Positions 3 through 9,712 of a stretch of 64,000 nucleotides of DNA are shown here, in pieces. The notes beneath the pieces were generated by a model. That model was given only the letters and a program-made list of their open reading frames with translations. It searched no databases and had not been told where the DNA came from. The position numbers and the translations under genes were made by a program. The stretch is from Pyrococcus furiosus DSM 3638 (GTDB lineage: Archaea; Methanobacteriota_B; Thermococci; Thermococcales; Thermococcaceae), in assembly GCF_000007305.1 (NCBI RefSeq), contig NC_003413.1, positions 1,235,318 to 1,299,317 on the forward strand. Direction: 5' to 3'. Positions within the stretch are counted from its first letter, which is position 1. Every line of letters begins with the position of its first letter.

Positions 3-1487
3 TACAAGGATATTAATACACTAAATTACAAAAATTTACAAGACATGGAGTACATTGCAGCCTTGACAGGTAAAGTACCGTACTACGACTTTGAAACAAA
101 AGAGTCAAAATTTATTGAGAAGAACAAAATTCAACAGCTAATTTCAGAGCTCGTAAAGGAGGAAAAGTTTGCTGAGGCAAAAGAGCTGATGGAGTCCTCG
201 AAAAAAGACTACCTTAAAGAGCTTGAGAAAAACCTCACTCCAAAACTCCTCTCCCTCAGGATTTCGTTTCCATTGTGGGTGAAGCTTTACGCTTTGGCAC
301 TCAAGCATGAGACTTCCCCATCAGCAATTCTCAGGAGGCTTTTGATCAATGCAACTAAAAGCCTCATTGATGAATTGAACGAGGCAGGGATAATCACTCC
401 AAGGGCTTACTTGCTGATTAAGGAGTCCCTTGACAGCTTGGAGAAACTGCAGGAGAGGAGGACGTTTAATGAGGATGAAGTAGGCAGGAAGTACATACTA
501 ATTTATGAACATGAGGAACCGATAAGTGTTTCTGACTTAAAGCACATCCATTATTTCTTGAAGCGTCTTGTGAAAGCCTACGTCAAGCAGGATAACATTC
601 CAGAAGAAATCGTGAACTTGCTTTTTGAGAAAACCGTCGCTAGCGATTTTGAAACCCCTGAGGCGTTCTTTTACACATACGTGGGTGTTTTCAAAGAGAA
701 TAATGAGATATTCCTAAGGTTAGGTCCAGAAGTGAATACTCTCGACTTTTACTATGTTGTGTTTGAGTACCCAATAAGAGCAATTCAAGAATTTCCACCA
801 GAAATTGTACTGAAATTTCACAAGAAGATTCTCTTTAATGCCTTCGTGGATTGTCCTCATGTTATTGAAAAGATAAAGGCAAAGCTTGAAGGGGATGAAG
901 CTTTGACTCTTGATGATTACAAGAGCATTTTCTGCCATAACTTTGACAAAGAGATAGAGATATTATTCAGAGAAGGCACCAAGCCGTTTATTTATCCTGA
1001 AGGGGGTCAAGAATTCATGCATGTTGAATTTCTGCCCTACTGTTTTGAGGACTATCCCCTACCCCTATTTGGGATGGAGTTTTCAGAAAGAGAGCTTAAG
1101 ATAGATGGAATAGCTCTCAAGAGAAGGCCAAGCAAAAATGAAGTTAAGGAGAATCTTGAAAGATTAAGGAGCATTGCTAAAAAAGCATACTATGAAGCTG
1201 TAGGGTTAAGTGATGAAAAGGTTACTGAAGCGAGGGCAAAAGTCGAGAAAGGAGAAATTGATGAGGAAGTGTTAGAGATTCTCAGTGTTGCTAAGGGTGT
1301 CGATGCATTTCTTGACTATCTGCTTGTAAGGCAAGAGGGGGGTAAGGATTTGCTCTCAGCGTTTTCAAAGCCCTCTGAAGTGTTCACAACAACATTTCCA
1401 AAGCCTCTCGTCAGAATACTGGAGCTGTTCTATGGAAAGAAAGTAAAAGAGATCTTGGAAGAACTTATTCTCAAAGAACAGCTTTAA
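3..1487 (+). CDS. Uncharacterised protein with an internal ribbon-helix-helix-like segment, probably 5'-truncated by the window edge
   Basis: The family is not recognised. The first ATG is at 45, but the frame stays open upstream to the window edge and no ribosome binding site precedes that ATG, so the real start probably lies outside. Counting from the ATG, residues about 67-107 have the pattern of a ribbon-helix-helix DNA-binding unit: a short strand (LLSLRIS), a helix (PLWVKLYALALKH), a turn (TSPS) and a second helix (AILRRLLINA). The remaining roughly 370 residues are mixed alpha/beta and acidic-basic, with no signal peptide or membrane segment. An RHH motif inside a large protein could mean DNA binding coupled to another activity; that is inference. 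It lies just upstream of two operons that share an unusual operator, so it is a candidate regulator or partner. Confidence is high that it is a gene and low for any function. Confidence 0.75.
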   Translation, partial: YKDINTLNYKNLQDMEYIAALTGKVPYYDFETKESKFIEKNKIQQLISELVKEEKFAEAKELMESSKKDYLKELEKNLTPKLLSLRISFPLWVKLYALALKHETSPSAILRRLLINATKSLIDELNEAGIITPRAYLLIKESLDSLEKLQERRTFNEDEVGRKYILIYEHEEPISVSDLKHIHYFLKRLVKAYVKQDNIPEEIVNLLFEKTVASDFETPEAFFYTYVGVFKENNEIFLRLGPEVNTLDFYYVVFEYPIRAIQEFPPEIVLKFHKKILFNAFVDCPHVIEKIKAKLEGDEALTLDDYKSIFCHNFDKEIEILFREGTKPFIYPEGGQEFMHVEFLPYCFEDYPLPLFGMEFSERELKIDGIALKRRPSKNEVKENLERLRSIAKKAYYEAVGLSDEKVTEARAKVEKGEIDEEVLEILSVAKGVDAFLDYLLVRQEGGKDLLSAFSKPSEVFTTTFPKPLVRILELFYGKKVKEILEELILKEQL

Positions 1488-1544: not shown

Positions 1545-1619
1545 CCGAAAAATTTAAAATACAACAATATTACAAAATGCAAAAATTTTATATTACGGAA
1601 GTTTCTAGTATAATATTAC
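1545..1619 (+). promoter_or_regulatory. Promoter with three TATTAC operator boxes at exact 23-bp spacing
   Basis: A BRE-like ccgaaaaa (1545-1552) runs into an A/T-rich TATA element (about 1552-1560). It is followed by TATTAC at 1568, 1591 and 1614, exactly 23 bp apart. The transcript should start near 1580, so the boxes straddle the start site, as repressor sites often do in archaea. The same architecture recurs at 3511-3590 in front of the NYN gene. The operator function is inferred from the repetition. Confidence 0.6.
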
Positions 1620-1634
1620 GGAAGAGGTGATAGG

Positions 1635-2017
1635 GTGGAGACATTGGTAGTTTTACTGAGCCAAGGTTAATTGTTGGGAGTAAGGATCTTGTACATGAGA
1701 AAAATGAAAGAACAAGAGTGTATTCCACAGCTAGGGGAATGAGAGGCCGTGAAAATGGACAAGTATTATTTGAAGCGTTGATTGATTACCTCGTAGCTGA
1801 TTGTTGGGAATGCACTAAGAAATTAGCAAGTGAAGAATTCGAGAAGACTACTCAAGAACACTGCTTTAAAGTGTTGGCAAAAGAAATTGAATGGGATGTC
1901 TCAAAAGCAAGAGTTCTGCTTGAATATGTTGAAATTTTCAAAAATGATTCTTTAATGAAAGGACTTGAAGAGGGTTTTGATTGGTTAAAAATTGATTTGA
2001 ACTGTTTATCTCCTTAA
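1635..2017 (+). pseudogene. Small uncharacterised protein gene, apparently frameshifted near its 5' end
   Basis: A good ribosome binding site (gaggtgatagg) is followed by GTG at 1635, placed like the start of the NYN gene relative to its operator, but that frame ends after 11 codons at a TAA. A second frame then stays open from 1634 to 2017 and reads as plausible protein throughout (SFTEPRLIVGSKDLVHEK onward). Its only conventional start is a GTG at 1718 with no ribosome binding site. The simplest reading is one gene with a single-base shift around 1645-1665. The alternative is initiation at an unusual codon such as ATT 1643. The product is about 120 residues, helical, with cysteines in the pattern DCWEC, and is not recognised. 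It is first in a run with the ComF-like and DprA-like genes. Confidence 0.45.
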
Positions 2018-2039
2018 TTTAAAGCCTTGAGGTGACTAC

Positions 2040-2747
2040 ATGATGAAGTTCTGTCCTAATTGTGGGAGTTTGATGACGTCCAGAGAAACTCCCAGAGGTA
2101 CTATTTTTGTTTGCAGAGGCTGCGAAATGGAAATCCTCAGGACTGAAGACATTGAAACGATAATAAAGCTCCCACTTTATGATCCTAAAAAAGTTCCGGA
2201 GTTTCATTCTGAGGACTTGTGGATTAACGGTAAGAGAGTCCCTTACTATTTCTTGGGCTATTATCTACCACAAAATAAGACGCAACAAGATGAGTTTTCC
2301 AAAAGCGTTTTAGATTTTAAGAAGGGGTACTTAAATGTAATTTCAAAATTTGCAGAGGATGTTGTTAACTTAATCCGCTTTAAAAAGCTGAAACCTGACA
2401 TAATAATCCCAATACCCAGTAGCAAGAAAGGCGAGATTAGTCTTGGGCACAAATTACTAGTAGACTATGTCTCCAATGAATTGAAAATCAAAAATGGTAC
2501 TAGAATCTTGCAAAGATGGTATTCTGTTCAAAAATCCCATTTAGCATCCCCAAACAAACGTCCTATAGAAAGAGATCATTACCTTTCAATTACCTGCAAA
2601 CAAAGGTTAGAGAATATGAAAGTCGTGCTCTTTGATGACATACTCACCACAGGCGATACCGCAAGAGCATGTGTAAGAATAATTTTTGAATGTGGGGCAT
2701 CGAAAGTGTATTTAATTACTTTGGCAAGGACAAAATTGGTGAGGTAA
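2040..2747 (+). CDS. ComF-like phosphoribosyltransferase with N-terminal zinc ribbon
   Basis: The N-terminus carries a zinc ribbon (CPNCG at residues about 5-9, CRGC at about 26-29). The C-terminal half has the type I phosphoribosyltransferase signature VVLFDDILTTGDTA (residues about 197-210), whose acidic pair and TTGDT loop bind PRPP, and an upstream IIPIPSS strand. This matches the ComFC/GntX layout: zinc ribbon plus PRTase without an obvious purine or pyrimidine hood. In bacteria ComFC acts in natural DNA uptake; the reaction is not established. The start at 2040 follows gaggtgacta; a second ATG sits at 2043. The stop is one base before the DprA-like gene, so the two are co-transcribed and probably act together. 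PRTase fold confidence is high; the precise role is unknown. Confidence 0.8.
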   Translation: MMKFCPNCGSLMTSRETPRGTIFVCRGCEMEILRTEDIETIIKLPLYDPKKVPEFHSEDLWINGKRVPYYFLGYYLPQNKTQQDEFSKSVLDFKKGYLNVISKFAEDVVNLIRFKKLKPDIIIPIPSSKKGEISLGHKLLVDYVSNELKIKNGTRILQRWYSVQKSHLASPNKRPIERDHYLSITCKQRLENMKVVLFDDILTTGDTARACVRIIFECGASKVYLITLARTKLVR

Positions 2748-2748
2748 C

Positions 2749-3402
2749 TTGACTCAAAAAAAGCTTATCGAATACACCAACCCAAGCACCTCTAGAAGGA
2801 AGATCACCAGGATACCAATTGATTCCCCCGATTATCCCCCTCTTTTAAAACAGATAAAAGATCCTCCGAAGATAATTTATGCTATTGGCAACGTTAGATT
2901 ACTAAACAAACCAGCAGTTGCAATTGTAGGCACAAGACAGCCTAGTGAGAGGGGAGAGTATTATGCTGAAAAAGTAGCCGAATTTTATGCAAAACAAGGA
3001 TTTGTTATTGTTTCTGGCCTCGCTTTGGGTATTGATTCAATTGTCATAAAGACTGCTTTGAAGACTGGGGCCCATGTAATTGGCGTTCTTCCGTCTCCTG
3101 TAAACGATATTGTGCCAAAAAGCAACGAAAAACTTGCTGAGAAGATAATTAGAAGTGGAGGTCTTCTTATTTCGGAGCTACCTGAAGGTACTAAACCGAA
3201 AAAGTATCATTTTGTCCGCAGGAATAGGATAATTAGTGGGATTTCATTTGCTGTAGTGGTCATTGAATCTGAGTTGAAAGACGGGACAATGCACACAGTG
3301 AAATTTGCCAAACAACAGAGGAGGATTATTCTGGTAACTAATCTTCCAGCTAGTGGGAATGCAAAGCTCAAAAATGAGGGCTTTCCAATTTTAGACTTCT
3401 AA
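2749..3402 (+). CDS. DprA/Smf-like Rossmann (SLOG) protein
   Basis: The protein shows the DprA core: PDYPPLLKQIKDPP at the N-terminus, AVAIVGTRQPSERG (residues about 60-75), VIVSGLALGIDSI (about 86-98), a GGLLISELPEG strand-loop and RRNRIISGIS (about 154-165). In bacteria DprA binds incoming single-stranded DNA and loads RecA; SLOG relatives in defence systems bind nucleotides. At 217 residues it is essentially the Rossmann core, without the C-terminal winged helix of many bacterial DprA proteins. Translation starts at TTG 2749, with gaggt immediately after the stop of the ComF-like gene, a very tight coupling. No other competence genes lie nearby, so a role in conflict or nucleotide signalling is as likely as DNA uptake. 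Confidence 0.8.
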   Translation: MTQKKLIEYTNPSTSRRKITRIPIDSPDYPPLLKQIKDPPKIIYAIGNVRLLNKPAVAIVGTRQPSERGEYYAEKVAEFYAKQGFVIVSGLALGIDSIVIKTALKTGAHVIGVLPSPVNDIVPKSNEKLAEKIIRSGGLLISELPEGTKPKKYHFVRRNRIISGISFAVVVIESELKDGTMHTVKFAKQQRRIILVTNLPASGNAKLKNEGFPILDF

Positions 3403-3510
3403 AGGCTTTGCAAGGCAGTAGTGTTGTGAGAGCATTACCTCCTGATGTCCTCAAAGGTAACATCCTCTAAGTCAGTTGAAATCATAACCATGATCGCTCA
3501 AATTATTAAA

Positions 3511-3590
3511 CCGAAAAACTTAAATATGACAACAACAATATTACATAATGAAGAAGATTAACATTACAAAAACTGCTTGCATAATATTAC
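3511..3590 (+). promoter_or_regulatory. Second copy of the 23-bp-phased triple-box operator promoter
   Basis: BRE ccgaaaa (3511-3517) and TATA cttaaata (about 3519-3526) are followed by TATTAC at 3539, CATTAC at 3562 and TATTAC at 3585, again exactly 23 bp apart. The last box ends 16 bp before the ATG of the NYN gene, matching the distance from the last box to the GTG at 1635 in the other copy. Transcription should begin near 3547, so two boxes lie in the leader. The rest of the gap (3403-3510) shows no coding potential. Confidence 0.6.
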
Positions 3591-3606: not shown

Positions 3607-4164
3607 ATGAAGGCGGCTGTGTTGATTGATGGTGAAAATGTTGTGATGTGCCTTAAGAATGCCCTCGGTGGAAAAGTGCAACTTGATAGAGATATTGACT
3701 GGAGGAAATTCTTTGAGTATCTCAAATCTCTTGGTTATGAAGTCACAATAGCCAGAATTTATGCAAACCCGTTCATATTCCTAAAAAATCCTCACATTGC
3801 CAACAACTTAGAAAAAATGGGTATCAAAGTCGTCTTAGCGGAGTCTACTATGAAGGAAAATGGACCAAAAAGCACGACTGATGCAACCATGATAGTTGAT
3901 GGGATGAGCATACTTTATGAGAGGCCCGCAATTGATGCTCTCATAATCGTTTCAGGTGACAGAGACTTTCTGCCCCTTGCAGAAAAAGCGAGAGAACTTG
4001 GCAGGACAGTACTTTTTGTAGCTTTTCCAGACTCTACCGCAAATGTCATCAAGAACAGGTATCAAGTAATTAACCTCCTTGAGTTCAGTGGACTCAACGA
4101 AACTTTTAATAGGAAAATGATTTCAAAAGAAACTAATTTTACTACCATCCATACATTTTCTTAG
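3607..4164 (+). CDS. NYN (LabA/DUF88-like PIN-fold) domain protein
   Basis: The NYN domain pattern is clear: AVLIDGENV at the N-terminus (first acidic residue), a long middle with TTDATMIVDGMSI (residues about 96-108), LIIVSGDRDFLPLA (about 117-130) and the closing strand INLLEF. NYN proteins are PIN-fold, metal-dependent and usually act on RNA. The four acidic positions expected for metal binding appear present. The start ATG 3607 follows ggtggggagg; an upstream in-frame ATG at 3577 lies inside the operator and is rejected. The last 25 or so residues are low-complexity. It is the first gene of an operon that continues into the broken DUF262 gene and the nuclease gene, so a defence role is likely by context. 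Fold confidence is high; the target is unknown. Confidence 0.8.
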   Translation: MKAAVLIDGENVVMCLKNALGGKVQLDRDIDWRKFFEYLKSLGYEVTIARIYANPFIFLKNPHIANNLEKMGIKVVLAESTMKENGPKSTTDATMIVDGMSILYERPAIDALIIVSGDRDFLPLAEKARELGRTVLFVAFPDSTANVIKNRYQVINLLEFSGLNETFNRKMISKETNFTTIHTFS

Positions 4165-4192
4165 ATCAACATTCGCTGAAGAGGTGTGAGGC

Positions 4193-4824
4193 ATGAGTTT
4201 CTTCAACCTCAGAGTCGAAAAATGAGAGTGTTTGACCTCTGGAAGAGTCTTAAGGAAAGAAACAACTACTATCTTCCAGCATTCCAGCGTGATTATGTCT
4301 GGGACGAAGACGACATAAAGTCCATGATAGACTCTATCATTCATGGTTATCCAATAGGATCCACACTCTTCTGGAAGCCATCAAGGGAGGAGTTCATAAC
4401 GGACGATCCATTCTCAGCACCTTTAGCAGACTTTACAGTAGGTCACGGAGGCGACAGCTACTACGTGCTTGACGGATAACAGAGGTTAACTTCATTGCTT
4501 CTGCTCTTCAATGGCTGGAAAATAACAAGAAAAGGTAGAGAATTCTCTTTGAAGATTCCCATCTCTATCCACCCAACTGGAGATGGATACAGGCTTTACA
4601 AGAGCCAAACAGGAGGTATTGATCTATCAAACTTCATAAAAGAGATAGTTGAATTTAGGATAGACAAGGAACTAGTGAGAACGATTGATGAAATTGATCT
4701 AGACTACGTCATTCCCGTTCGTACGGAAAATCCTGAATGGTCTAGTGAAATGTGGGAAAATAAAGCAATACTTCTAAAAATGGAGAAAGCTGGGAGATTT
4801 AAAGGTAGGAGGGAGGTGGTTAAT
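4193..4824 (+). pseudogene. DUF262 (GmrSD/ParB-like) gene broken by a frameshift and a nonsense codon
   Basis: The DUF262 hallmarks are visible: NNYYLPAFQRDYVWDEDDI, IIHGYPIGSTLFW and the catalytic-loop motif DGQQRLTSL. Two lesions break it. The natural start, ATG 4193 after gaggtgtgag, reads 10 codons (MSFFNLRVEK) and hits TGA, because the run of A at 4218-4222 is one base short of joining the next frame. Later TAA at 4477-4479 replaces the first glutamine codon of DGQQRLTSL; the frame then resumes as QRLTSL. The sequence remains readable to about 4824 but is much shorter than intact family members (often 500 or more residues), so the C-terminal part is lost. DUF262 proteins are NTPase/nuclease subunits of modification-dependent (type IV) restriction such as GmrS. 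Confidence 0.8.
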
Positions 4825-5865
4825 ATGCCAATTTCCAAAAATATTTCCCAGGAACATGTGTTAAAGGCTATCGAAGAAATTGATAAGAATGGAGTCTCAG
4901 GAAAATTCAAAGGAAAAAGTTACTCTCTGATATATAATGGCAAGAGGTATCCCCCAAAGTATGTGGTATCTCTAGCAAACAAATATGCCAATGGTGAGTT
5001 TTTGGATCCAGCCGAGTTTAATACCCATGCAGCCGTAAGGTATCTAAGAAGGCTTGGATTTAGGGTAGCCAAAATAACACCAGAAACAGGAGAGGATTCA
5101 ACAGAAGGGGGTTCTGGTAGCAACATTATCGAACTCCCAATACTACAATTTCCACCTAATGAATTTGACAAAAAGATGTACAGTGTTTTTGAGAGATTTG
5201 CTTCTCTCGTAGAAGAGAGACTCAGAGCAATAGTTGAGAAGTGTTCTGAGCTTGAAAAAATTCACCAAGAAAGCGAGGACACAATTAGATACATGATGTT
5301 CCATGCATTGACAACTGTTGGAGGAATAGATCCTCTCGACGTTTATCTCGAATATCCTCATCCAGAAGTTCCCAACCGAAAATATGCAAAGCTTGACACA
5401 TTTGTAGCTGCTAAAGAGAACAGGCCGGCATTAGCATTCGAGATGAAATTTAAAACAAAAATCCCTAGTAGAAATAATATTCCAAGGTCACAAATAGCTG
5501 GTTCAGCCTTTGCGGATTTATTAAGGTTGGCATCATTCAGAGTAAAGTCAAGTGAAAAAACAAAGAGATACTTTGTTTATGTAGTAGATGATGAGATGAT
5601 AGGATATTACCGCAACCCAAGAAACTGTCTAGAGGAGTTCTTTGATTTAGAAACTAATAAGGGATTCAAACTAACCAAAGACTACATCCTCTTTAAAAAC
5701 AAAACAAAAACAGAAAAACGAGCTAAGTGGCTAATTAGAGGAGTAGAATCTAGTATGGGAGAGCCCACCAATTGGCCAGAGCCTACAGTAATCTGCAGAT
5801 TTAGGAGAGACTTTGACTTCGGAAGCAATAGGATAGTAATTAGGATTTACGAAGTAGTACCGTGA
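4825..5865 (+). CDS. Probable modification-dependent endonuclease: McrA-type head domain plus PD-(D/E)xK nuclease
   Basis: The start ATG 4825 follows a strong site (gggaggtggtt); the reading frame before it belongs to the broken DUF262 gene. Residues 1-75 (ISQEHVLKAIEEID, YNGKRYPPKYVVSLA, LRRLGF) resemble the N-terminal head domain found in ScoMcrA-like restriction enzymes. The C-terminal part (about 135-346) has an acidic-strand pattern KLDTFV followed by ALAFEMKFK, fitting motif II/III of a PD-(D/E)xK nuclease (D...ExK). In between is an acidic, Ser/Gly-rich linker (GEDSTEGGSGS). The 346-residue frame is intact, unlike its upstream neighbour. By domain content and location it is probably the effector of a type IV-like restriction module that has lost its DUF262 partner. 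The nuclease assignment is from the motif pattern only. Confidence 0.6.
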   Translation: MPISKNISQEHVLKAIEEIDKNGVSGKFKGKSYSLIYNGKRYPPKYVVSLANKYANGEFLDPAEFNTHAAVRYLRRLGFRVAKITPETGEDSTEGGSGSNIIELPILQFPPNEFDKKMYSVFERFASLVEERLRAIVEKCSELEKIHQESEDTIRYMMFHALTTVGGIDPLDVYLEYPHPEVPNRKYAKLDTFVAAKENRPALAFEMKFKTKIPSRNNIPRSQIAGSAFADLLRLASFRVKSSEKTKRYFVYVVDDEMIGYYRNPRNCLEEFFDLETNKGFKLTKDYILFKNKTKTEKRAKWLIRGVESSMGEPTNWPEPTVICRFRRDFDFGSNRIVIRIYEVVP

Positions 5866-5876
5866 GGGACGGGGAT

Positions 5877-6843
5877 ATGTGTGAGCTCTTCGACGTTAAC
5901 GCAAACAAAGGGGTGAGCGTAAACTTCACGTGGCGGGGCTTTGTAAGGAAAGGCGAGCTTAACCCCCACGGCTGGGGCATTAGCTGGTATCTAACAGCTG
6001 TCAACGGAAAGAGAGCCGCTTCACTGATAAAACAACCTATCCCGGCTTACGAAAGTATGATTGCCCTCACACTTCCAAGACTTAACATAAGGAGCCAAAT
6101 TATCATAAGCCACGTAAGATTCGCCACCAGTGAAATCAACTACCTGGACACTCATCCTTTTGTGAGGAGAATTAAAAGCATTGGACAGTATGATGAGTGG
6201 ATTTTCGCCCACAATGGAGTACTGAACGGTGTTAAAGAACTGCCCAAACGCTTCAAGCCTTTAGGAACGACGGACTCAGAAGCAGCATTCTGCTACATAA
6301 TGGAGAACTTGGAGGGGATAGGAACCATGAGAGCTCTTCACTAAACTATATCAGCTTTTAAGCCAACTCAGCGATTACGGGACACTAAACGTTCTGATGA
6401 GCAATGGAAGATATCTCTTTGCATATAGTCATTATCCGAGTAAAGGAAAGTGGCTGCTGAAGCGTCACCCGCCGCACAAAGGTCGTGCAAGGCTCCTTGG
6501 CGAGGACTTTGAAGTCTCAATTGGAGAGGCGAAAGCTGAGGACGAGTATGCATACCTCGTAGCCACAAGAAGACTCACCGATGAAAACTGGGAAAAATTA
6601 GAAAAAAGAATCTCCTACATTTTCAGGGACGACGCTTTGCTACTCAAGATTGGCAGGAAAATCGAGCCAATGCTTGACAGGGAAGCCATACAAGTCCTCA
6701 GAGCAGTTTTGAACGGGGAGAACGTCGAGCTCGACGAGACCGTTAAACGGCTCGTAGAATTAAAACTCCTGAAAATAACCAAGAATAGGGTTGCAATAAA
6801 CAATTACGGGAGAGCGATAGTTAAACTGATTATGGGAGCATGA
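5877..6843 (+). pseudogene. Class II glutamine amidotransferase (YafJ-like), frameshifted
   Basis: ATG 5877 is followed directly by Cys (MCELF), the N-terminal nucleophile of class II amidotransferases. NPHGWGISWY, ISHVRFATS, FAHNGVL and TTDSEAAF are the expected glutaminase-domain motifs. The first frame ends at TAA 6342-6344. Removing one T there (cactaaa to cacaaa) joins it to the frame containing LYQLLSQLSDYGTLNVLMSN and running to 6843, which supplies the missing C-terminal half (GRYLFAYSHYPS). So a single-base insertion splits an otherwise well-preserved gene of about 320 codons. It starts 11 bp after the nuclease stop and overlaps the next broken gene by a few bases, suggesting a former operon. 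The substrate of the family is usually unknown. Confidence 0.75.
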
Positions 6844-7122
6844 TGATAACAGTTTACGGCACCCTGAGGAAAAGTAAGCCGCTGCATGGCTACCTAAAGA
6901 ACAGTAGATTCTTCGGCGAGGACTGGATTGAGGGCTATGACCTTTTACGTTGACGTTCTTCCTTATGCTGTCAAGGGCAGAGGAAGGTTGAGGGTTTAGG
7001 TGTATGAGGTTGATAAGGAAACATTCGAGGAAATCAATCGCATGGAAGTAAATGCCGGCTACAAGCTAGTTGAAACGGATACAAAGTTCGGAAAGGCTAT
7101 TCTTTGGGAGTGGGTTCATTAA
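6840..7122 (+). pseudogene. Gamma-glutamylcyclotransferase-like gene, frameshift plus nonsense
   Basis: ATG 6840 (or 6843) overlaps the stop of the amidotransferase gene. MITVYGTLRKSKPLHGYL is the typical N-terminus (YGTLR substrate loop) of the GGCT/AIG2-like fold. The frame breaks at a run of four T near 6951 (GYDLLR then TGA). With one T removed it reads GYDLYVDVLPYAVKGRGRLRV, then TAG where most relatives have an acidic codon (GAG to TAG), and continues as VYEVDKETFEEINRME to TAA at 7120-7122. The total is about 93 codons, shorter than usual but with both ends present. Family members cleave gamma-glutamyl amines or amides; pairing with a glutamine amidotransferase is chemically suggestive. 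Confidence 0.7.
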
Positions 7123-7184
7123 CCAAGTGGAGAAAGGGTAGAGAGCGGGGATTTTAATGATGGCAAGTTTGAAAGGTGGTGAGT

Positions 7185-7371
7185 GTGCTCCGCTCAAGGC
7201 TTGAGGGCGGTCTCTGAGGAATCCTTATTGGAGATGCCTTCAGCCTTGACCTTCCAGTTCACCAGCAGGCTTGAGATGGAACTGAACTATCCAAAACCCA
7301 AGGAAATTTCAATTCTTGACGGCTTGTGGAGTGACGACTCCTCTTTGACCTTGGCAACTAAAAGCTCCTAA
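7185..7371 (+). pseudogene. ADP-ribosylglycohydrolase-like fragment, multiply disrupted
   Basis: GTG 7185 after ggtggtga begins LRSRLEGGL, then TGA at 7215, then GILIGDA in the same frame; this fits the conserved N-terminus RLEGALLGxxxGDALG of ADP-ribosylglycohydrolases. The reading then shifts to a second frame with FQFTSRLEMEL and GLWSDDSSLTLA, matching the family's metal-binding motif (G-W-(S/T)-D-D-(S/T)). The sequence stops at 7371, so only the first 60 or so of about 300 residues survive. This is recognised from motif order, not from a search. Nothing coding is evident in 7372-7530. Confidence 0.6.
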
Positions 7372-9200: not shown

Positions 9201-9234
9201 ACAAGAGGTGGGAAAGATATTTAACCCCACTTGT
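9201..9234 (+). promoter_or_regulatory. hicBA promoter with imperfect inverted repeat
   Basis: ACAAGAGGTGGG (9201-9212) and CCCCACTTGT (9225-9234) form an imperfect inverted repeat around the TATA-like gatatttaa (9216-9224). Its placement over the core promoter of a HicB gene fits autorepression by the antitoxin or toxin-antitoxin complex; this is inferred. The rest of 8976-9200 has only a weak hairpin (9108-9131) and no gene. Confidence 0.45.
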
Positions 9235-9257
9235 GCAGAATACAAATTGGTGGGAAA

Positions 9258-9488
9258 ATGAAGTTCAAGGTCATTCTCGAGCCGCAACCAGAAGGGGGAT
9301 ATGTGGCATATGTTCCTGCACTTCCCGGTTGCATGAGCCAAGGGGAAACTAAAGAGGAAGCTCTAAAAAACATAAAGGAGGCTATTGAGCTTTATCTCGA
9401 AGTACTCGAGGAGAGACGAATGGGCAAGACCTTGAAGAAGTTTGTCAAGCACTCAGACAAGACTCAAATTGTCGAGGTTTCATTATGA
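9258..9488 (+). CDS. hicB: HicB-family antitoxin
   Basis: A 76-residue protein with the partially degraded RNase H-like HicB fold: MKFKVILEPQPEGGYVAYVP, then ALPGCMSQGETKEEAL, then a helix NIKEAIELYLE. HicB neutralises the HicA mRNA interferase and often represses its own operon. The start at ATG 9258 follows attggtggg; an upstream in-frame ATG at 9231 lies in the promoter repeat and would add nine unlikely residues. No C-terminal DNA-binding domain is obvious, so any operator binding would need the complex or the short basic tail. It overlaps hicA by four bases (ATGA). Confidence 0.85.
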   Translation: MKFKVILEPQPEGGYVAYVPALPGCMSQGETKEEALKNIKEAIELYLEVLEERRMGKTLKKFVKHSDKTQIVEVSL

Positions 9489-9712
9489 AGCTTCCGAGAG
9501 ACGTTTCTGGTGAAGACGTTATCAAAGCCCTTCGAAAGCTGGGTTATGTGCCTGCAAGGCAAAAGGGTTCTCATGTTGTGCTCACGGGACCTAGTGGAAA
9601 AATCATTGTTATCCCATTGCACAAGAGGATAAAGACTGGTCTTCTCAGGGCCATCATTCGAGAGGTTGGGGTTTCAGTAAAGATTTTTATTAAGCTTCTT
9701 GAAGATCCCTAA
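9485..9712 (+). CDS. hicA: HicA-family mRNA interferase toxin
   Basis: A 75-residue double-stranded RNA-binding-like protein with the HicA pattern SGEDVIKALRKLGYVPARQKGSH, whose GSH histidine (about residue 33) is the catalytic residue in characterised HicA toxins, followed by HVVLTGPSGKIIVIPLHKR and a C-terminal helix. It overlaps the end of hicB, so it is translationally coupled. The key histidine and the whole fold are present, so the toxin looks functional. It lies at the end of the defence-like island. Confidence 0.85.
   Translation: MKLPRDVSGEDVIKALRKLGYVPARQKGSHVVLTGPSGKIIVIPLHKRIKTGLLRAIIREVGVSVKIFIKLLEDP

Follow-up and report, generated by a model that had tools for sequence, protein, structure and literature searches.

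Genes and promoter arrays in the window

The window analysed here is a stretch of 64,000 nucleotides from Pyrococcus furiosus DSM 3638. Its left end carries a gene for a 494-aa protein of an orphan family, followed by two operons in the same orientation, each of which is preceded by an array of three short boxes (Table 1).

Table 1. Features at the left end of the window
Feature	Position	Strand	Remark
Candidate regulator, 494 aa, orphan family	3-1487	+	N-terminus cut by window edge
Promoter 1 BRE/TATA (ccgaaaaa tttaaaat)	1545-1560	+	from the sequence
Promoter 1 box 1, TATTAC	1568-1573	+	between TATA and predicted start site
Promoter 1 box 2, TATTAC	1591-1596	+	from the sequence
Promoter 1 box 3, TATTAC	1614-1619	+	abuts a Shine-Dalgarno-like stretch on its 5' side
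First gene of the promoter 1 operon	1635-2017	+	resembles TERMP_RS11085 (130 aa) by reading
ShosT-like phosphoribosyltransferase, N-terminal zinc ribbon	2040-2747	+	PADLOC ShosT 6.3e-20; ComF in the initial annotation
ShosA-like DprA-family protein	2749-3402	+	PADLOC ShosA 1.1e-67; Pfam DNA_processg_A 1.2e-66
Promoter 2 BRE/TATA (ccgaaaaa cttaaata)	3511-3526	+	from the sequence
Promoter 2 box 1, TATTAC	3539-3544	+	from the sequence
Promoter 2 box 2, CATTAC	3562-3567	+	TATTAC in G001 and G088
Promoter 2 box 3, TATTAC	3585-3590	+	from the sequence
NYN-domain nuclease gene	3607-4164	+	Pfam NYN 2e-25
DUF262/GmrSD_N gene with in-frame TAA (4477-4479), then ORF 4495-5865 of unknown family	4186-5865	+	

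The operon behind promoter 1 had been described as ComF/DprA. The two genes are indeed adjacent, as in ShosTA, and the PADLOC profiles identify the pair as a homologue of that system. The phosphoribosyltransferase also matches NCBIfam comF (1.1e-14, below the cut-off of that model), Zn_ribbon_RPB9 (1.5e-6) and, below cut-off, Pribosyltran (4.2e-5) of Pfam. The GTG at 1635 lies 15 bp behind the first set of boxes, as annotated, but opens a frame of 11 codons only; it is not in the frame of the gene body (ORF 1718-2017), and the T. barophilus MP gene TERMP_RS11085 is single-frame. Further downstream, the island seems to have decayed. The in-frame TAA of the DUF262 gene sits inside its DG-QRLTSL motif, and a stretch near 4690 resembles, by eye, the RNase J tail of locus L001. 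Two small adjacent ORFs at 9231-9712 look like a HicB/HicA pair. Split ORFs at 5862-7371 look by eye like the class II glutamine amidotransferase, gamma-glutamylcyclotransferase and ADP-ribosylglycohydrolase genes of pTBMP1/PYG1 module III (PMC5126054).

The box positions and the BRE-like and TATA-like elements 5' of both sets, as initially annotated, were read directly from the sequence, and all four steps are exactly 23 bp. The pattern ATTAC-23-ATTAC-23-ATTAC, with up to two mismatches, was found at two places in the 64 kb, which are these two promoters, both exact. By chance, 0.11 occurrences are expected; one of 100 shuffles reached two, and the exact triple appeared in none of 200 dinucleotide shuffles of the window. 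A chance match was therefore rejected. The two promoters are 78% identical over 69 nt; an alignment anchored on the boxes shows 17 identical nucleotides out of 18 within the boxes and 21 out of 34 in the spacers. Being related in sequence, they are not independent and count as one observation plus a copy. The distance from the TATA element to box 1 is unequal, with 14-15 nt (depending on how the TATA is drawn) in promoter 1 and 20 nt in promoter 2. The proposal that a regulator would contact the same face of the DNA at each box is loose, as 23 bp correspond to 2.19 turns at 10.5 bp per turn, so that each box is turned by about 70 degrees relative to the one before, and the arrays of relatives use steps of 24 or 25 bp besides 23.

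Arrays in related genomes

The recurrence of the array at homologous promoters, suggested as a check in the initial annotation, was searched for in 94 Thermococcales genomes with one mismatch allowed. The only genomes with exact triples were G001, which has one, and G088, which has two; the seven one-mismatch triples elsewhere, versus three for the reversed control, were taken as background. The array does recur, and it tracks the gene at 3-1487. Relatives of the 494-aa protein, 57-93% identical (alignment A2), are present in six of the 94 Thermococcales genomes, and the count remains six among 115 genomes of the phylum. Intact copies are carried by G001, G088, G012 (two loci, C6 and C3), G011 and G013; compared with the G001 protein, those of G012:C6, G012:C3, G011 and G013 are 77%, 57%, 57% and 62% identical, respectively. 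G088 matches Thermococcus barophilus MP, in which the locus lies on plasmid pTBMP1, the only plasmid found to carry a relative, and the protein has the accession WP_013747440.1; none was found in phages and viral contigs. In G006, there are two fragments of the C-terminal half only (L056, 7135-7756).

At each of the seven loci where the regulator gene is intact, the window included, an array of two or three boxes at 23-25 bp was found before a nearby gene. The steps are 23+23 in the window, in G001 and in both pTBMP1 promoters. The G012:C6 array reads TATTAT, TATTAC and TATTGC at 24+24, that of G012:C3 GATTAC, TATTAC and AGTTAC at 24+24, and that of G011 GAATAC, TATTAC and AGTTAC at 23+24 with a weak first box, while G013 has two TATTAC boxes at 25 bp and no convincing third one. 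All nine aligned sequences share the ATTAC of the middle box. A box matrix, trained on the five 23-bp arrays only, was used to score equal-spaced triples against dinucleotide shuffles: the G012:C6 triple and the G013 pair were each matched by 0 of 5000, and p values of 0.0024 and 0.017 were obtained for G012:C3 and G011, the best-scoring triple of G011 being different from the triple read by eye. The diverged arrays are thus unlikely to have arisen by chance. The regulator locus of G011 is nearly the same as that of G012:C3, so that the loci represent about four independent lineages.

The 494-aa gene is the only gene seen at all seven loci. A divergent 120-aa gene is present in four of the seven stretches (absent from G012:C6, G013 and the cut window); in G012:C3 and G011, where the regulator gene is divergent, it is separated from the array by this 120-aa gene. 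What follows the array also varies. In G013 it is not a NYN gene but a TFB gene, coding for two TFIIB repeats and a zinc ribbon, which is an extra copy, as another TFB gene is found elsewhere in the same genome. Conversely, a ShosTA pair in G019 (ShosA 66% and ShosT 57% identical to those of the window) has no array within three mismatches in its 3.7-kb locus, and the stretch just before a distant NYN gene in G017 (42%) contains a TATA-like element but, on the coding strand, no ATTAC. Neither genome has a relative of the regulator; these are the two effector loci without the regulator gene whose sequence was read. Other genomes gave weak NYN matches (E 1e-6 to 1e-3, 20-30% identical) and, in G050, a partial ShosT match. 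The G013, G017 and G019 loci thus speak against the array being there on account of NYN or ShosTA; in every locus examined, the arrays follow the regulator gene. At the level of the sequences compared, every intact copy of this gene is accompanied by the array, irrespective of which gene comes next.

As a separate observation in L113 (900-1500), the G019 ShosTA pair lies directly behind an ORF whose C-terminus resembles, by eye, the HSDR_N-type gene after the NYN gene in L001.

The candidate regulator

Database searches with the 494-aa protein gave little. Only sub-cut-off matches were obtained in Pfam (UPF0158, DUF562, SeqA_N) and none up to E 0.1 in NCBIfam and PADLOC; the best PHROGs match had an E value of 0.041, and matches to transcription regulators reached only 0.17-0.18. 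The Pfam and PDB-sequence searches revealed no convincing DNA-binding domain. A ribbon-helix-helix (RHH) domain was not detected by profile either, with no RHH family in Pfam and an Arc-like PHROG at E 0.17. When 49 overlapping windows of 55 columns were aligned to archaeal RHH_1 with hhalign, residues ~41-79 scored highest, at 34%. In a 495-aa AlphaFold model of low confidence (pLDDT 45, two sequences), this region reads as a strand (35-40) and helices at 41-53, 57-66 and 68-77; a 62-aa model (pLDDT 65, one sequence), also poor, is all helix. A conserved stretch at residues 87-115 (helix-helix, 80-125) was favoured by eye as an RHH domain, but it was not supported by Pfam, PDB-sequence searches or hhalign (2%), and the 495-aa model has helices without a strand there. 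As no domain is established, we infer DNA binding from linkage and not from the fold. In literature searches, no published work on the array or the regulator was recognised, and NYN and TFB do not occur in the one pTBMP1 paper searched (PMC5126054).

Position of the boxes and proposed control

Box 1 begins 14-22 nt after the start of a TATA-like element in eight of nine arrays; no clear TATA precedes that of G012:C6, and the TATA of G013 is weak (6/8). The regulator's own promoter carries a single AAATTAC, 19 nt after the TATA start in five of six loci and 17 nt in the sixth, the count covering the six intact relatives as the upstream region of the window copy is cut off. With the usual archaeal distance from TATA to start, box 1 and the own-promoter box lie upstream of the predicted start site. 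From this position between TATA and predicted start, box 1 is expected to block polymerase. The own-promoter box was scored with the matrix in three of the six promoters (p 0.155, 0.153 and 0.005); as two of these values are not significant, the case for autoregulation is one of position and conservation.

These data are best explained if a single local regulator, most likely the 494-aa protein, uses the arrays as tandem operators and probably also represses its own gene; on balance we consider this explanation probable. A dedicated repressor, with the protein encoded at 3-1487 as the first candidate, had been proposed initially. Since the array tracks this gene and is absent from two effector loci without it, a dedicated local regulator is well motivated, and the repeated operator in target promoters linked to a regulator gene, as expected for a local repressor, is found at all seven loci. 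That it acts as a repressor is likely from the position of the boxes. The 494-aa protein would bind each (T/A)AATATTACR-like box, and bound units would probably cooperate along the array. Occupancy of box 1 would block transcription, and the single box in the regulator's own promoter would allow autoregulation. Release of the repressor, perhaps upon infection or loss of the protein, would then switch on the neighbouring cargo.

Alternatively, the boxes may be read by some other DNA-binding protein, either a host-wide one or one with its gene at another place, the 494-aa gene being merely linked to them, for instance as defence cargo. The 494-aa protein has no recognisable DNA-binding domain and linkage is in itself no proof of binding, which would fit such a protein, but a host-wide factor should have other targets, and exact triples are confined to G001 and G088 among the 94 genomes. 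A search of the six carrier genomes for the pair AATATTAC with a step of 23-25 bp returned four matches, all in the NYN arrays of G001 and G088, so that paired 8-mers occur only at regulator loci. The shorter TATTAC pairs at 23-25 bp gave 27 matches in 20 of the 94 genomes, seven of them within these arrays, and were outnumbered by the reversed-pattern control (about 88); a genome-wide regulon was thus not seen at the motif strength used. Given also that the 494-aa gene alone is seen at all seven loci, we regard another binder as unlikely.

The boxes might also act in RNA, as boxes 2 and 3 lie in the 5' leader, where a leader-binding protein or a fold could control translation. In the NYN arrays, box 3 is next to a GG-rich Shine-Dalgarno-like stretch, and the folds predicted for G012:C3 and G011 include hairpins that have most of the middle box in the loop. 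However, folding z-scores of nine 80-nt segments ranged from -1.70 to +0.65, none being significant, and box 1, like the regulator's own box, would lie outside the transcript by the usual TATA-to-start distance. Control at the RNA level therefore seems improbable.

Relation between the two arrays

In G001, the ShosTA stretch is missing and there is a single array, whose spacers match promoter 2 at 28 of 34 positions versus 20 of 34 for promoter 1, while its upstream flank is promoter 1-like by eye. Such a mixed array would fit recombination between copies as well as an ancestor that had one array. In the more distant G012:C6 locus there is one array too, between the regulator and NYN genes, and T. 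barophilus MP has only remnants of ShosTA. For these reasons, the NYN array is read as the older one. The ShosTA array would be a copy, through which an inserted operon came to be controlled in the same way; the direction of copying is our inference. It is very unlikely that promoter 1 is simply a recent copy of promoter 2 with functionless identical boxes since, despite the likeness of the promoters and a G001 array that is mixed as if repeats had recombined, the boxes are conserved more than the spacers and the array is kept, with altered but regular spacing, where the regulators are only 57-62% identical. We thus return to tandem operators of a local regulator, in which case the array copied in the window would have made the inserted ShosTA operon subject to the switch that already controlled the older NYN operon.

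The idea that both operons are two arms of one system, put forward in the initial annotation, is not supported. Searches of G001, G012 and G011 revealed no relative of ShosA, and only the ShosTA remnants lie between the T. barophilus MP arrays. ShosTA occurs without the regulator in G019, and in G013 the regulator gene stands beside TFB instead of NYN.

Comparison with known systems

TrmB-family regulators of Thermococcales control promoters through boxes near the TATA element, but their motif, TGM, is an inverted repeat, whereas the arrays described here are direct repeats of another sequence. In VapBC-like toxin-antitoxin systems, the antitoxin is co-transcribed with the nuclease. A pair of this kind, formed by the regulator and a PIN/NYN protein, was considered and rejected, as the regulator and NYN genes are on opposite strands in G012:C3 and G011, and G013 has TFB instead. 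The ShosTA pair of the window is recognised from its genes, which match the profiles of both the DprA-type antitoxin and the phosphoribosyltransferase; it differs in being archaeal, in lying behind a triple operator common to a NYN operon, and in the N-terminal zinc ribbon of its phosphoribosyltransferase.

A close parallel is the RHH repressor F55 of Sulfolobus virus SSV1, which, according to PMC5569661, has two sites at T5, T6 and Tind and one at its own promoter, Tlys. F55 is a mobile-element regulator acting on tandem promoter repeats, and its several sites at targets and one at its own gene match the pattern of boxes in the present loci. It differs by its RHH domain and demonstrated binding, whereas the ~495-aa protein is a candidate binder proposed from linkage, and motif and spacing are unlike those of the arrays. 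According to the same source, SvtR, another RHH protein of an archaeal virus, represses its own gene, and dimers of the AvtR/SvtR type bind cooperatively to several operators and oligomerise along DNA toward promoter elements. These viral proteins recognise other consensus sites, and a sequence relation to the 494-aa protein was not found.

To our knowledge, how archaeal defence genes stay off until needed has been little studied. Here, a candidate regulator, a motif and several natural targets can be named, one locus being on a plasmid of T. barophilus MP, and an operator array has apparently been copied, recruiting a newly inserted toxin-antitoxin defence operon. If the binding is true, it would add a family of regulators in which no DNA-binding domain is recognised, and tie an accessory TFB gene to the same switch. 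Far more tentatively, the 494-aa proteins could be a new archaeal family of DNA-binding regulators, so far restricted to Thermococcales, that forms a portable switch, a copied operator array being enough to place any cargo under one infection- or stress-sensing repressor. The cargo of such a switch would include toxin-antitoxin defence, NYN/restriction genes and even an alternative TFB that could retune transcription.

Plasmid pTBMP1 also carries an extra TFB gene near the regulator gene, on its other side (L084, 13629-14522), whose product shares 84% identity, over 291 aa, with the TFB encoded next to the regulator gene in G013.
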